Source: a virus
Reading direction: 5' to 3' (one strand)
DNA length: 64,000 nucleotides
IMG/VR virus record: IMGVR_UViG_3300044615_000294
Span: 27,342 to 91,341 of that record
A program made the translations under genes and the position numbers. Position 1 is the first letter of the stretch; every line of letters begins with the position of its first letter. Shown piece by piece: positions 3-17,915 of the stretch. The notes beneath the pieces were generated by a model. That model did no database searches and was not told the DNA's origin. It saw nothing but the letters and a program-made list of their open reading frames with translations.

Positions 3-1088
3 ATGGAGAGACAGGAAATACAAGATGAAGCTTTAAAGGCTACTGAGGGTAAACAGAAATGCACTATTGTACTTGGTACAGGTGTAGGTAAAACTCTTGT
101 AGGCTTAAAGCATATGGAGAAACATTATTCCCCATTGCAAAGTATTCTGATTGTTGCTCCCAAACTGTCTATCATTAGCTCATGGAGATATGAGGCTGAG
201 AAATTTGGATTAAGTAACGTATTAGAAAATGCTACTTTCTCTACTTATCTTAGCTTAAATAAACATAACCCTAATGACTTTGATGCAGTTTATTTTGATG
301 AAGTGCATAGTTTATTAGATAGTCATAGACCATTTCTAAATAGTTTTACAGGGAGAGTGCTGGGTTTAACCGGCACTCCACCTAAACATAAAAACTCTGA
401 GAAAGGTAGAATAGTATCTGAATATTGTCCAGTTGTCTTTACATTTAAGGCAGATGATGCAATAGAATCAGGTATTATTAATGATTATCAGATAATTGTG
501 CATGAAGTTGATATAAGTACAGAAAAGAACTATAAAGTAGAGACAAAGAATAAATCATTTATGACTTCTGAAGCTCTAAATTATACTTATTGGGGTACAA
601 GGATTGATACATCAGCGGGGCAAACTCACATACTTAGAGTAATGAGAATGAAAGCTATGATGGAGTATCCAAGTAAAGAAAGATATGCTAGAGAACTATT
701 AAAGAGTATTAATAGTAAGTGTATTGTATTTGCTAATACTCAAGATCAAGCAGATAGAATGTGTACACATAGTTATCATAGTAATAACCCTGATTCTGAA
801 ACAAATTTGCAGGATTTTAAGGCTGGTAATATTACAAAGCTCTCATGTGTATTGCAATTAAATGAGGGTGTAAATATTCCAGGATTAAAACAGGGAATTA
901 TTATGCATGCATATGGGAATGAGCGTAAGGCTAGTCAGAGAATAGGAAGACTTTTGCGCTTAAACCCAAATGATAAAGCTATTGTGCACATACTATGTTA
1001 TATAGGAACTGTAGATGAAAAGTGGGTTAAAGAAGCTTTGGAAGATTTTGATCAAAGCAAGATTGTGTGGCGGAAGTATAATCTATAA
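3..1088 (+). CDS. SF2 DEAD/DEAH-box helicase
   Basis: Superfamily 2 nucleic-acid helicase of 361 aa, compact for the family. Visible motifs: a Q-motif-like start (RQEIQDEAL, residues 3-11), Walker A GTGVGKT (25-31), motif II DEVH (99-102), motif III LTGTPP (about 121-126), and motif VI QRIGRLLR near the C-terminus. Both RecA-like lobes are therefore present. Family members unwind DNA or remodel replication and recombination intermediates (UvsW-like or SNF2-like roles); which one applies here cannot be told from the sequence. The first ATG is two bases inside the window, and the Q-motif directly after it suggests that this is the true or nearly true start. The ClpS-like gene follows after 15 bases, so the two are probably co-transcribed. 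Confidence 0.9.
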   Translation: MERQEIQDEALKATEGKQKCTIVLGTGVGKTLVGLKHMEKHYSPLQSILIVAPKLSIISSWRYEAEKFGLSNVLENATFSTYLSLNKHNPNDFDAVYFDEVHSLLDSHRPFLNSFTGRVLGLTGTPPKHKNSEKGRIVSEYCPVVFTFKADDAIESGIINDYQIIVHEVDISTEKNYKVETKNKSFMTSEALNYTYWGTRIDTSAGQTHILRVMRMKAMMEYPSKERYARELLKSINSKCIVFANTQDQADRMCTHSYHSNNPDSETNLQDFKAGNITKLSCVLQLNEGVNIPGLKQGIIMHAYGNERKASQRIGRLLRLNPNDKAIVHILCYIGTVDEKWVKEALEDFDQSKIVWRKYNL

Positions 1089-1103: not shown

Positions 1104-1358
1104 ATGGAAGAAAGTGTAACACATAAGATTATTCTGCATAATGATGACAAGAACACATTTGCATATGTAATGGCTTGTCTTATAAGATTTTGTGAACACC
1201 ATCCTACACAGGCAGAGCAGTGTGCTTTGCTTGTGCATGAGATGGGAAAGTGTACAGTAAAGTATGGAGATTTTCTTACTATGTTGGAAATTTCACAAAG
1301 TCTGCGTAATTTAGATCTCAAAACAACAGTAGAGGAAAATGCGGGCAATATGTATTGA
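1104..1358 (+). CDS. clpS: ClpS-like N-degron adaptor protein
   Basis: An 84-aa protein that reads as a ClpS core domain. Visible: the NDD motif (residues 13-15) after a HKIIL strand, the LLVHEMGK helix and turn (42-49) with the conserved Val44-His45, and a final strand region. In bacterial ClpS the NDD residues and this His hold the N-terminal residue of N-end-rule substrates, which are handed to ClpA(P). The E. coli protein is about 106 aa; this one lacks most of the N-terminal extension that engages ClpA, keeping only about six residues before the core. It lies 15 bases after the helicase and overlaps the next gene by 20 bases. Family assignment is by motif. Its role, probably redirection of the host Clp protease, is inference. 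Confidence 0.85.
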   Translation: MEESVTHKIILHNDDKNTFAYVMACLIRFCEHHPTQAEQCALLVHEMGKCTVKYGDFLTMLEISQSLRNLDLKTTVEENAGNMY

Positions 1359-1614
1359 TGCTTCAAATAAACCAAGCAAGGTACCTGATAATGAGTGGGT
1401 TATAGAGGGTGAAGTATATACTATCACAAGAGTGGTAAGAATGGGATTACAGGATAACAAGTTTGGCGTACTTCTTAAAGAAGTTAAACTATCATCAAAC
1501 TCTTTTCCATATGAACTCTATGATGCAGAAAGATTCTTACCTATGGATTTATTATCACAGGCATTTGAAGAAACAAAAGAAACAGTTAAAGAAGCTGACT
1601 TAGAACTAATTTAA
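1339..1614 (+). CDS. Small conserved phage protein, unknown function
   Basis: A 91-aa protein of unrecognised function. It starts 20 bases inside the end of the clpS-like gene. The sequence predicts mainly beta strands in the first two thirds (alternating hydrophobic pattern around WVIEGEVYTITRVV, about residues 20-33), suggesting a small SH3-like or barrel fold, then an acidic helical C-terminus. There is no signal peptide or membrane segment. The tight overlap with neighbours on both sides supports it as a real gene in the early operon. No function is proposed. Confidence 0.7.
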   Translation: MRAICIDASNKPSKVPDNEWVIEGEVYTITRVVRMGLQDNKFGVLLKEVKLSSNSFPYELYDAERFLPMDLLSQAFEETKETVKEADLELI

Positions 1615-4193: not shown

Positions 4194-4412
4194 ATGATTA
4201 TTTTAAGGAAAGGAGAGGACAAGCAGGGTTACAGAGTATTAATGGTAAAACTTACACCAATGTCAGAGACAAGATTCTCTGTACAGAAGAAAGTTAAATT
4301 CTTATGGTTCTTTACTAGATGGGAAGATGTGTTAGATAAACACGGAATGCCCAAGATATTTGATTCCAATAAGAATGCATCAGCTTTTATTAACTTTCAG
4401 AAACGTTGGTAG
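4194..4412 (+). CDS. Small hypothetical basic protein
   Basis: A 72-aa basic protein, probably beta-rich in its first half. No motif is recognised. It starts 18 bases after the previous gene and its end overlaps the radical SAM gene by 7 bases, which suggests translational coupling to that enzyme. A role as its partner is possible but only inferred from position. Confidence 0.6.
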   Translation: MIILRKGEDKQGYRVLMVKLTPMSETRFSVQKKVKFLWFFTRWEDVLDKHGMPKIFDSNKNASAFINFQKRW

Positions 4413-5269
4413 AGAAAGTTACTAGAAAAACTATGAAGATTAGACCAAGCGGGAGGAGCACTGATTTCATTGCTCCTTCTTTTGGTCATGGCTGTTTGTA
4501 TAACTGTTCTTACTGTTATATGAAGAGACATAAGCCGGAAGGATTATCTATAGCAACAAATCCTATGGATATTCTGACAGCAATTAACAATCATGTTTGG
4601 TTTGCTGATGTTGAGAAGCCTAATCAAACAGGAGAATATATTACTTATGACATCTCATGCAATGAAGACTTTGCTTTACATGCTAAGTATCATGACTGGG
4701 AAAGAATATTTGAGTATTTTAGAGATCATCCACTTGCTATGGGTTCATTTGCTACTAAGTATGTGAATAAAGAATTTCTTAAGTTTAATCCACAAGGTAA
4801 GATTAGAATAAGGTTTAGTCTTATGCCTGAGCATTTAAGACAAATCTTAGAACCTAATACTTCAACTATACCAGAAAGAATTAAGGCTGTTAAAAAATTT
4901 CAAGATGCTGGTTACGATGTTCATTTAAATTTTAGTCCGGTTATAGTAGAAAAAGATTGGTTGTTTTACTATGGATTTTTATTTAAAGAAATTGCAATTG
5001 CTGCTAAAGATATATTTAAGTGGAATGAAGGTGTCAAAGCAGAAGTAATATTTCTTACACATAATGCAAAAAAACATGAGTATAATTTGGAACATAAAAT
5101 TCCTGGCGAGGACCTTATTTGGAAGCCAGAAATCCAAGAAACCAAAATATCCCAGTATGGAGGAGAGAACATTAGATATGTATCATCAGACAAATCCAGA
5201 TATATTGAAGAATTTAGAAAACTTCATGCTGATATTATACCCTGGAACACCATTAGGTATATTTTCTAA
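4406..5269 (+). CDS. Radical SAM protein, spore photoproduct lyase-like
   Basis: A 287-aa radical SAM enzyme. The 4Fe-4S cluster motif is C30-x3-C34-x2-C37 in GCLYNCSYCYMKRH, a form typical of the spore photoproduct lyase (SplB) group, which reverses the thymine dimer of UV-damaged spore DNA by direct repair. Cys85 (ISCNEDF) lies where the hydrogen-donor Cys of the Bacillus enzyme would be expected (about 50 residues after the first cluster Cys), though I place it by memory of the family. A TIM-barrel-like pattern continues to the end. A DNA-repair role for the phage genome is likely but not proven; the wider SPL-like group includes uncharacterised members. It follows the small basic gene with a 7-base overlap. 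Confidence 0.8.
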   Translation: MVEKVTRKTMKIRPSGRSTDFIAPSFGHGCLYNCSYCYMKRHKPEGLSIATNPMDILTAINNHVWFADVEKPNQTGEYITYDISCNEDFALHAKYHDWERIFEYFRDHPLAMGSFATKYVNKEFLKFNPQGKIRIRFSLMPEHLRQILEPNTSTIPERIKAVKKFQDAGYDVHLNFSPVIVEKDWLFYYGFLFKEIAIAAKDIFKWNEGVKAEVIFLTHNAKKHEYNLEHKIPGEDLIWKPEIQETKISQYGGENIRYVSSDKSRYIEEFRKLHADIIPWNTIRYIF

Positions 5270-15153: not shown

Positions 15154-15581
15154 TGATTTTAAGTAGAGATGAAGTTAAAAATTTAGTAAATATGATGAAG
15201 TCATCAGATAAAGAGAATCACTATCTGGTGTATAAAGTTTTAGAAGATTTAGATTTAGAAACAAATCTTGGAGAAGTACTAGTTATTTTTAGATATGGTA
15301 ACTATAGGTTAGATGAGTGGGAAGAGGATTGTCCAAAGGTTTATGATTTTATAATAAATAAACTACATGATTACAATGGTGGATGGGATTCAAAACCTAC
15401 TACAAGTGATATCTTATCATTACTGACCAAGAATAATGCTTCTAAAGATTCTATAGAATTGTTTCTAGAGTACTTTATGATGAATCTTGGTAGAATGTTG
15501 GACAATATGGGATATCCAACAGACAAGTTTGAATTAACAGTTAAATTAAAAGACAATGGACAAACAGCAAAGTCTAAGTAA
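15153..15581 (+). CDS. Hypothetical phage protein
   Basis: A 142-aa acidic, mostly helical protein of unknown function. Its last 26 bases overlap the VWA/metallopeptidase gene, so expression of the two is likely linked. There is no signal peptide, membrane segment or catalytic motif that I recognise. Confidence 0.65.
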   Translation: MILSRDEVKNLVNMMKSSDKENHYLVYKVLEDLDLETNLGEVLVIFRYGNYRLDEWEEDCPKVYDFIINKLHDYNGGWDSKPTTSDILSLLTKNNASKDSIELFLEYFMMNLGRMLDNMGYPTDKFELTVKLKDNGQTAKSK

Positions 15582-16734
15582 AATTAGTAAAGAGCTAATG
15601 TTGAGAGAGCCCTATTATGGGTTCTTTCTTATTATGCTCAACAAAATGTGGAGAAAAGATCTTCCTACGGCAGGTGTGAGTAAGAATGGTATCAACTATC
15701 AGTTGGCTATCAATGAGGAGTTTTGGACAAGTCTTAGTGAGAAGCATCAAATGGGATTGCTTAAGCATGAGTTATTGCATATTGCTTTTGGACATTTAGT
15801 GAGTTTTGGTTCTTTTAGAAACAAGAAACTTGCTAATGTTGCAATGGACATGGAGATCAATCAGTATATTGATCCAGAATATTTGCCAGATGGAGGTATA
15901 GATATAAATAACTATGAAGATCTTGATCTTGATATTAAAGCAGGTTGTAGATATTATTATGATAAACTACAACAGCTTAAAGATGAGAAAGACAAGAACG
16001 GTACATGTGGAAATGAGGAGATGGATAAGTTGCTAGACAACATAGACAATGGAGATGTTCCTGATCATAGTACATGGGAAGAGTTTGATGATCTTAGTGA
16101 AGCTGAGAAAAAACTAATTGAGAAGCAAATTCAAAAAGTTTTAGCAGATGCTAAAGAACAAACTATTAAGAAGCGGGGGAATGTTCCAGGTGAGATAGAA
16201 GGTGTTATAATTATTGAAGAAATAGTTAAACCTAAATTTGACTGGAGAAGTTATGTCAGAAGATTTTCTGGTACAAGTACTAAAGTATTTACCAAGAAGA
16301 TTAGAAGAAAAGAGAATAGAAGGTATGATGAAAATCCTGGCCTTAAAATTAAAATGAAACAGCATATGTTGTTGGCCATTGATACTTCAGGTTCTGTAAG
16401 TGATGCAGAGTTAAATGAATTTATGAATGAGATACACCATATCTATAAAGCTGGAGTAGATATTACAATAGTTCAATGTGACACAAGTATTAATTCTATA
16501 GAAGAATACAAAGGTAAGAATGAACTAAATGTAAAAGGTAGAGGTGGGACTGAGTTTGATCCAGTTCTAGATTATTATAATGCTAACCAAAAGAAATATA
16601 CAAGCCTGGTGTATTTTACTGACGGAGAGTGTTATACATCTGTAAAGCCAAAAGGACGTATCCTGTGGGTTTTGTCAGAGAGATCAAGTATGAATGAAAG
16701 TTTACCAGGTCATGTAATTAAATTAGAACTATAA
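15556..16734 (+). CDS. VWA domain protein with HELLH metallopeptidase-like region
   Basis: A 392-aa protein with two parts. The N-terminal region has KHELLHIAFGH (HELLH at 71-75), a zinc-metallopeptidase-like motif as in the DUF2201 family. The C-terminal region (about 265-392) is a von Willebrand A domain with the MIDAS motif DTSGSVS (276-282) and a later FTDGE. A charged linker joins them. Proteins of this build are encoded next to MoxR AAA+ ATPases, and the next gene here is one, 11 bases away. Known MoxR-VWA pairs act as chaperones for metal insertion or complex assembly; the target here is unknown. Confidence 0.85.
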   Translation: MDKQQSLSKISKELMLREPYYGFFLIMLNKMWRKDLPTAGVSKNGINYQLAINEEFWTSLSEKHQMGLLKHELLHIAFGHLVSFGSFRNKKLANVAMDMEINQYIDPEYLPDGGIDINNYEDLDLDIKAGCRYYYDKLQQLKDEKDKNGTCGNEEMDKLLDNIDNGDVPDHSTWEEFDDLSEAEKKLIEKQIQKVLADAKEQTIKKRGNVPGEIEGVIIIEEIVKPKFDWRSYVRRFSGTSTKVFTKKIRRKENRRYDENPGLKIKMKQHMLLAIDTSGSVSDAELNEFMNEIHHIYKAGVDITIVQCDTSINSIEEYKGKNELNVKGRGGTEFDPVLDYYNANQKKYTSLVYFTDGECYTSVKPKGRILWVLSERSSMNESLPGHVIKLEL

Positions 16735-16745
16735 AAAGAAAAACT

Positions 16746-17915
16746 ATGAGCACAGTACAATTAAACGTAGAAGAGTTAAAAGGATTTATCCGCCATATGG
16801 TTGCAAACAACCAGTATATCCAAAGCCAAGGAAAAGTTCCAGTGGCAATTAATATTGAAGGTGATGCCGGTCTTGGTAAGACTTCAGCTATCATGCAGTT
16901 AGGTAAAGAACTTGACATGGATGTAGTAAAGCTTAATTTATCTCAGATAGAAGAATTAGGTGACTTAGTTGGTTTTCCTGTTAAAGAATTCTTGGTAAGA
17001 AATCAAGAAGGTAAAGAGCGTTGGATAAATGAAGCTCAGATTCAAGGAGCTCTTAATGCTAAGTTTACTGTTGTAGATAAGAGAATGGCTCATGCTGCTC
17101 CAGAGTGGATTCAAGGTAAAGGTGAAGGTGGTTTCTTGGTATTGGATGACTATACTCGTGCAGACCATAGATTTATGCAAGCCACTATGGAGATCTTAGA
17201 TAGACAAGAATATGTTTCTTGGAAGCTACCTAAGAACTGGCACGTAATCTTAACCACTAATCCAGACAATGGTGACTATAATGTTACTTCTTTGGATGTT
17301 GCTCAGAAGACCAGATTTATTTCTGTAGAGATGAAGTATGATGTTAATGTGTGGGGTAAATGGGCTGAGACAGCAGGAATAGATGGTAGATGTATTAACT
17401 TTATGTTGATGCACCCAGAGCTTGTAACTCAAAGAGTTAATCCAAGAGCTATTACTACGTTCTTTAATGCTATCAGTTCTATTCCAAAGTTTGAAGATAA
17501 TCTTCCACTAATCCAAATGATTGGTGAAGGTTCTGTTGGTGCTGACTTTAGTTCTATGTTTACTATGTTTATTAACAATAAACTAGATAAGATTATCTCT
17601 CCGGATGATATTCTTAACAAGGATGAAGCATATGTAATGGGAGCTTTGACAAGTGCAGTTGGTAAAGATGATGATTTCAGGGCAGATATTTCAAGTGTAA
17701 TTGCAACCAGATTGGTTAATTATTCACTTGTTATGGCTGAGAAAGGTTCTGTTGCTGCACCTATTATTGACAGATTAGCTAAGCTTACTACAGACTGTGA
17801 AGCATTTACAAATGACTTGAGATATTATATGATCAAAGAGATTGTAAATGGAAACAAGGTGAAGTTTGCTAAACTCATGCAGAATACTAATGTGGTGAAG
17901 ATGGCTATCAGCTAA
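16746..17915 (+). CDS. MoxR-family AAA+ ATPase
   Basis: A 389-aa MoxR-type AAA+ ATPase: Walker A GDAGLGKT (39-46), Walker B FLVLDDYTRAD (about 130-140), a sensor 1 region ILTTNPDNGDYN (about 168-179), and a C-terminal helical lid with a VNPRAITTF sensor 2-like motif. It pairs with the VWA/metallopeptidase gene just upstream (11-base gap). Such rings remodel a client, with the VWA protein as adaptor. In a phage, assembly of a large virion or replication complex is a reasonable role, but no client is shown. Confidence 0.88.
   Translation: MSTVQLNVEELKGFIRHMVANNQYIQSQGKVPVAINIEGDAGLGKTSAIMQLGKELDMDVVKLNLSQIEELGDLVGFPVKEFLVRNQEGKERWINEAQIQGALNAKFTVVDKRMAHAAPEWIQGKGEGGFLVLDDYTRADHRFMQATMEILDRQEYVSWKLPKNWHVILTTNPDNGDYNVTSLDVAQKTRFISVEMKYDVNVWGKWAETAGIDGRCINFMLMHPELVTQRVNPRAITTFFNAISSIPKFEDNLPLIQMIGEGSVGADFSSMFTMFINNKLDKIISPDDILNKDEAYVMGALTSAVGKDDDFRADISSVIATRLVNYSLVMAEKGSVAAPIIDRLAKLTTDCEAFTNDLRYYMIKEIVNGNKVKFAKLMQNTNVVKMAIS

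Follow-up and report, generated by a model that had tools for sequence, protein, structure and literature searches.

ClpS is an adaptor through which marked proteins are passed to the protease machinery of the cell, and, as Hou reportedly found in 2008, the minimum tail for delivery is about 14 residues. The available portion of a cryo-EM study of E. coli ClpAPS describes the N-terminal extension of ClpS threading the ClpA pore, with P24-P25-S26 near the pore top, and reports that barring the extension from the pore inhibits delivery (PMC9663308). According to the accessible part of a second study, E. coli ClpS lacking this extension (delta-NTE) escapes degradation in vivo (PMC12974527). Phage-encoded ClpS has been described in jumbo phages and suggested, in the sections of two papers open to us, to bring targets to host ClpAP (Iyer 2021, PMC7824862; Attai 2018, PMC6102473). 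Jumbo phages PA5oct, Atu_ph07, Phosso, GAP32, and Vibrio phage 2.275.O, which have genomes of 285–490 kb and are phages of other kinds than the one analyzed here, all encode ClpS. The proteins of PA5oct, Atu_ph07, and Phosso retain an extension of about 20 residues, and those of GAP32 and Kaldavass carry a long additional N-terminal part, unlike the protein described below. Phage ClpS has already been published, and the form described here is tail-less and belongs to a clade of crAss-like phages; in a literature search for which subscription papers were mostly beyond reach, neither a crAss-like ClpS nor a tail-less phage ClpS was found.

The DNA analyzed, referred to as the window, is a stretch of 64,000 nucleotides corresponding to bases 27342–91341 of a 91,341-base virus record. 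The open reading frame (ORF) at positions 1104–1358 on the plus strand starts with ATG and encodes an 84-aa protein that consists of a ClpS core domain, as judged from profile matches and the modelled fold. The Pfam hidden Markov model for ClpS (PF02617) matched this ORF with an E value of 4.8e-15 and 55.5 bits (cut-off 23), and all five clade relatives checked also passed, at 46.1–49.3 bits. An AF2 model of the protein (pLDDT 93.2) matched the ClpS fold in Foldseek (E 6.9e-7, probability 1.0), and its comparison with solved ClpS structures from E. coli, Caulobacter, Mycolicibacterium, Arabidopsis, and Agrobacterium gave Z scores of 12.9–15.3. An L7/L12-type fold or a chance ORF was rejected, as L7/L12 structures reached Z scores of only 7–10 compared to 13–15 for solved ClpS. 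Two engineered TPR proteins that headed the phmmer list of PDB matches were dropped because their repeats contributed 0–7 bits each, with no significant single stretch. The NCBIfam ClpS equivalog models gave the window protein 27.3 bits, below the curated cut-off of 117, but five of five Bacteroidota ClpS also failed this cut-off (best 42.1), such that these models do not separate host proteins from the phage copy. The NDD and VHEMGK motifs noted in the initial annotation are intact, with N13-D14-D15 and V44-H45-E46-M47-G48-K49 aligning to N34-D35-D36 and V65-H66 of E. coli ClpS, and the ClpS-like identity proposed there was borne out. It is virtually certain that the product is a true member of the ClpS family.

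The terminase, portal, and head genes were used to place the carrier phage. Its TerL matched 131 phage records, the best at about 26% identity, to crAss-like cr1_1 and others; the portal protein is 27.5% identical to that of csAssE-Sib and 33% identical to that of a Leptolyngbya phage; and the major head protein is crAss-like by PHROG match. Searches with tblastn recovered relatives of these proteins in crAss-like gut phages, Cellulophaga and Flavobacterium phages, and one Leptolyngbya phage at roughly 22–33% identity. Judged from these three genes, the phage belongs among the divergent relatives of the crAss-like phages (Crassvirales). From these phage relatives and a ClpS tree (below), we infer that its host is a member of the Bacteroidota.

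The immediate upstream neighbor of clpS (3–1088, plus strand) encodes a ResIII/Helicase_C DNA helicase (PHROG 16), for which PADLOC reported PbeA-type helicase matches. Downstream, an ORF at 1620–2108 on the same strand has a weak match to the DnaA C-terminal HTH (20.4 bits, under the cut-off of 31.5), and a ParB-like gene lies just 5' of the window start. A DnaB-like helicase and a DNA polymerase are encoded about 8 kb and about 20 kb from clpS, respectively. The initial placement of clpS beside replication genes stands in part: a phage helicase, a weakly DnaA-like ORF, and a ParB-like gene are nearby, but the DnaB-like helicase and the polymerase are not adjacent. Elsewhere, the window encodes a radical-SAM protein that matches the spore photoproduct lyase family (4406–5269), relatives of which are encoded close to clpS at 45 of 84 loci, and a SegE-type GIY-YIG putative homing endonuclease (PF19835; 13651–14079). 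In the region 15556–17915, a DUF2201 putative metallopeptidase with a VWA-like domain adjoins a Walker-A ORF that has no Pfam match; a phage protease such as this one could create new N-termini.

To define the distribution of the gene, viral loci were collected in several ways. A single-sequence scan identified 22 related viral clpS loci, and a profile scan identified 80 that largely included these 22. Together they comprise 81 distinct viral loci, from which one cut by a contig end (L161) and two from other phages that were counted apart (L159 and L162) were removed to give 78. A second set, independent of the ClpS sequence, was anchored on the neighboring helicase and consisted of the best 80 of its 551 relatives. 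Within these best 80, clpS is located downstream of the helicase in 78; the two loci without it (L385 and L389) also lack the partner gene discussed below, so clpS is dispensable in some relatives. Of the loci anchored on ClpS instead (79 of this clade, one of them partial), 78 have the helicase upstream, the one miss having no upstream sequence, and 77 have the partner downstream; one of the two partner misses is cut by a contig end and the other (L140) is apparently real. Of 80 contigs from the terminase scan, 17 were checked, and clpS was present in four of four contigs over 100 kb and in one of 13 fragments of 30–70 kb. We conclude that, in an environmental clade of crAss-like phages, clpS is nearly always present.

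A tree of 127 ClpS sequences groups the 51 distinct phage sequences into a single clade with support of 100/96 and the Bacteroidota proteins on the other side, although it is built from few columns, its inner forks are weak, and it does not give the direction of transfer. A single acquisition from a Bacteroidota-type ClpS is the probable source of the phage gene, the direction of transfer being our reading. The window ClpS, used to search the phage collection, matched only proteins of three uncultured phages of 635–642 kb (LR745206, LR756502, and LR756504), whose ClpS are 42–47% identical to it. These proteins (L163, L164, and L165, encoded at about 5001) are Bacteroidota-like, with an extension of normal length (22–25 residues before the column of E. 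coli V30), and fall outside the crAss-like phage clade in the tree. Chromosomal ClpS of Bacteroidota (e.g., Flavobacterium and Salinimicrobium, within L024–L103) share with the phage proteins the fold family and the NDD and His66 contacts (E. coli numbering, used throughout for aligned positions), as well as the QAEQC helix and a helix-3 region shorter than in E. coli.

The Clp machinery of candidate hosts was then considered. In ten ClpS-bearing Bacteroidota genomes, Clp_N and ClpP were found in all ten and Aat in nine. No protein in these ten genomes scored above the ClpA cut-off, and of six Bacteroidota unfoldases scanned, one is a ClpB and five fall below both the ClpA and ClpB cut-offs. 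All eight ClpC-like unfoldases compared have a KYR pore loop and a VGF motif late in the protein, and seven have GYVG; VGF is at the expected docking region and is presumably a ClpP-docking-like motif. ClpA, named in the initial annotation as the partner of the phage protein, thus gives way to what these genomes encode, namely ClpB and a ClpC-like unfoldase. The latter is the likely host partner, to which knowledge about ClpA is carried over by analogy.

The N-terminal extension had been described as almost absent, and this is confirmed. The codons at 1104–1118 (plus strand) encode MEESV, by sequence and alignment the sole remnant of the extension, and these five residues stand ahead of the core where Bacteroidota ClpS have about 19 and the E. 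coli protein has 26. Counted to the column of E. coli V30, 8 residues precede it in the window protein, 29 in E. coli, and 20–49 in 79 Bacteroidota ClpS (80 loci, with L045 left out because it is cut by a contig end and one long ORF trimmed to a later ATG). A mis-called start was excluded. The helicase stop codon at 1086–1088 closes the clpS frame 15 nt before the ATG at 1104, and the intervening codons, read directly (TTA GTA TAT TAT TAT), contain no ATG, GTG, or TTG, so the short N-terminus is real. In the helicase-anchored set, reading from the first ATG gives 7–10 residues ahead of the V30 column for 74 of the 78 phage proteins, and in the remaining four an ATG in the same frame lies at the usual position. 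In a wider sample drawn from cell genomes (30 loci, 2 unreadable from an ATG; L287 repeats L055), all 28 readable proteins have at least 22 residues before this column. None of the 79 Bacteroidota or 28 wider-sample proteins is as short as the phage ClpS, and the disordered, pore-entering extension of a delivery-competent adaptor is missing from the window protein.

The substrate-binding residues present a different picture. The codons at 1140–1148 (plus strand) encode N13-D14-D15, equivalent by alignment to N34-D35-D36, and the codon at 1236–1238 (plus strand) encodes H45, equivalent to H66, such that the window ClpS retains all predicted contacts to the α-amino group of an N-degron. In the available part of the relevant study, D35, D36, and H66 form the N-degron contact site, and alanine mutants fail to bind substrate (PMC9810338). 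Across the 78 helicase-anchored proteins, N34 and D35 are invariant, position 36 is D in 61, K in 6, E in 4, S in 4, and N in 3, and position 66 is H in 55, D in 22, and E in 1. Binding of N-termini thus probably still matters for the phage protein, given the invariant contacts. The rim of the pocket differs: helix 1 (A20-Y-V-M-A24; 1161–1175, plus strand) has A20 and A24 in place of the acids at positions 41 and 45. The acid at 41 is gone in 68 of the 78 proteins and that at 45 in all 78, with neutral residues mostly in their place, compared to 79 Bacteroidota ClpS in which H66 and the acid at 41 are present in 79 of 79 and the acid at 45 in 73. These residue counts depend on sampling. The set found with the patterns ND[DK][KQ]NTF and YVMACLI is biased (M44 invariant, no acid at 41, H66 lost in 37 of 78), and the recount on the helicase-anchored set, with which it has many contigs in common, gave M44 in 43 of 61 unique sequences, an acid at 41 in 10 of 78, and loss of H66 in 23 of 78.

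As D36 and E41 of E. coli flank the pocket and are thought, in the part of the source at hand, to disfavor acidic residues at P2–P5 (PMC12258705), the loss of rim acids suggests that phage ClpS may accept different N-termini, and its substrate choice has probably moved. The same residues bear on a rival explanation, in which the phage protein is a retargeted adaptor: a ClpC-like machine would need no long extension, and the phage ClpS would deliver a shifted set of N-degron proteins, from host or phage, to ClpCP. The invariant N34 and D35, the lost rim acids, and the Asp or Glu at position 66 in 23 of 78 proteins fit this explanation; the acid at 41 retained in 10 of 78 does not, nor does the clade-wide absence of the extension, given that pore entry of the tail drives delivery in the one studied system, according to the text available (PMC9663308). 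We regard such retargeting as unlikely, but a serious contender. Replacement of His66 by Asp characterizes a subclade with a VADL motif (L121, L125–L155, L117, L123, and L124) that is under strong purifying selection. Asp at this position is not exclusive to phages, as it was also found in 2 of 28 readable cell proteins of the wider sample (L305 and L309, both divergent). Atu_ph07 ClpS has E at position 66, and ClpS of Vibrio phage 2.275.O (L277, 349 kb), a different kind of phage, is likewise without the extension and carries D at position 66, possibly a parallel change. Low dN/dS values for the core indicate that phage ClpS is under purifying selection: the 17 sequences of the window group have a median of 0.16, from 128 usable pairs out of 136, and the 16 sequences of the D66 group one of 0.09, from 78 out of 120.

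The conserved contacts would also suit a Clp-independent N-degron cap or chaperone that shields particular proteins, of phage or host origin, whose hydrophobic N-termini are exposed. Searches of phage records, some of which may be fragments, yielded neither Clp_N (10 records) nor Aat or ClpP (11 records). The lack of Clp_N and ClpP is in keeping with such a role, which we consider quite unlikely. Together with the general presence of these proteins in the Bacteroidota genomes, the negative result also fits the blocking role discussed below.

Immediately downstream, a 91-aa protein termed the ICID partner, which belongs to no known family, is encoded at 1339–1614 (plus strand), and its gene is present in all 78 clpS-bearing helicase-anchored loci. 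Its start overlaps the 3' end of clpS by 20 nt (1339–1358, plus strand). The YESNMH tail of ClpS was rejected as a functional motif, since its conservation is largely due to this overlap; median dS in the tail is 0. No Pfam match was obtained for the window copy of the partner (best LPD16, E 0.027, found in two of 18 relatives), there was no match among PDB sequences or in the phage collection, and its best fold match, to SH3 domains at Z 5.3, is within noise. PADLOC reported nothing for either the window ClpS or the partner. The partner has an acidic C-terminus that frequently ends in LELI or LELV. In one locus (L010), a 245-codon open frame at about 1755–2490 separates clpS from the partner, an apparent insertion. 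The strict linkage of the partner, together with the clade-wide short N-terminus and rim changes, suggests a changed role and speaks against an ordinary accessory copy that tops up host ClpS and whose short N-terminus is neutral. The window protein does match the host pattern at the α-amino contacts, as such a copy would, yet we think this explanation improbable.

The reading we tentatively favor, while placing it somewhat short of an even chance, is that phage ClpS blocks rather than delivers, acting as a stable, delivery-defective competitor of host ClpS. The protein would bind proteins carrying N-degrons, the N-domain of the ClpC-like unfoldase of the host, or both, but could not insert a tail to trigger substrate transfer; its five-residue remnant would end near the pore top. 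The E. coli delta-NTE protein, likewise a core without a tail, is engineered and has ClpA as its partner, whereas the phage protein is natural; the former evades degradation by ClpAP in the published excerpt (PMC12974527), and the tail-less phage ClpS might similarly evade degradation and persist. It would then compete with host ClpS and block or delay N-degron proteolysis during infection, possibly acting together with the partner. Of the two roles suggested in the initial annotation, redirecting or blocking the host protease, the conserved lack of the extension favors blocking, and the conserved contacts and shifting rim keep redirection in play. Occupation of ClpC alone would not require an invariant N34 and D35, though sequestration of N-degrons would. 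Dependence on the tail, on which blocking rests, is known from E. coli ClpA and not from the ClpC-like partner of Bacteroidota. A more far-reaching proposal is a clade-wide natural dominant-negative N-recognin, in which a degradation-proof, tail-less ClpS and its linked partner would stall the host N-degron pathway and, in part of the clade, the pocket would be re-tuned for other N-termini (H66 to Asp/Glu, rim acids lost). This full version is speculative and, in our estimate, unlikely to hold in its entirety.

To our knowledge, few physiological roles of bacterial N-degron proteolysis have been established. A near-constant, tail-less phage ClpS would direct attention to some protein, of host or phage, for which turnover through N-degrons counts in infection, and would let the pore-pulling model for ClpS delivery be tested in a natural setting.
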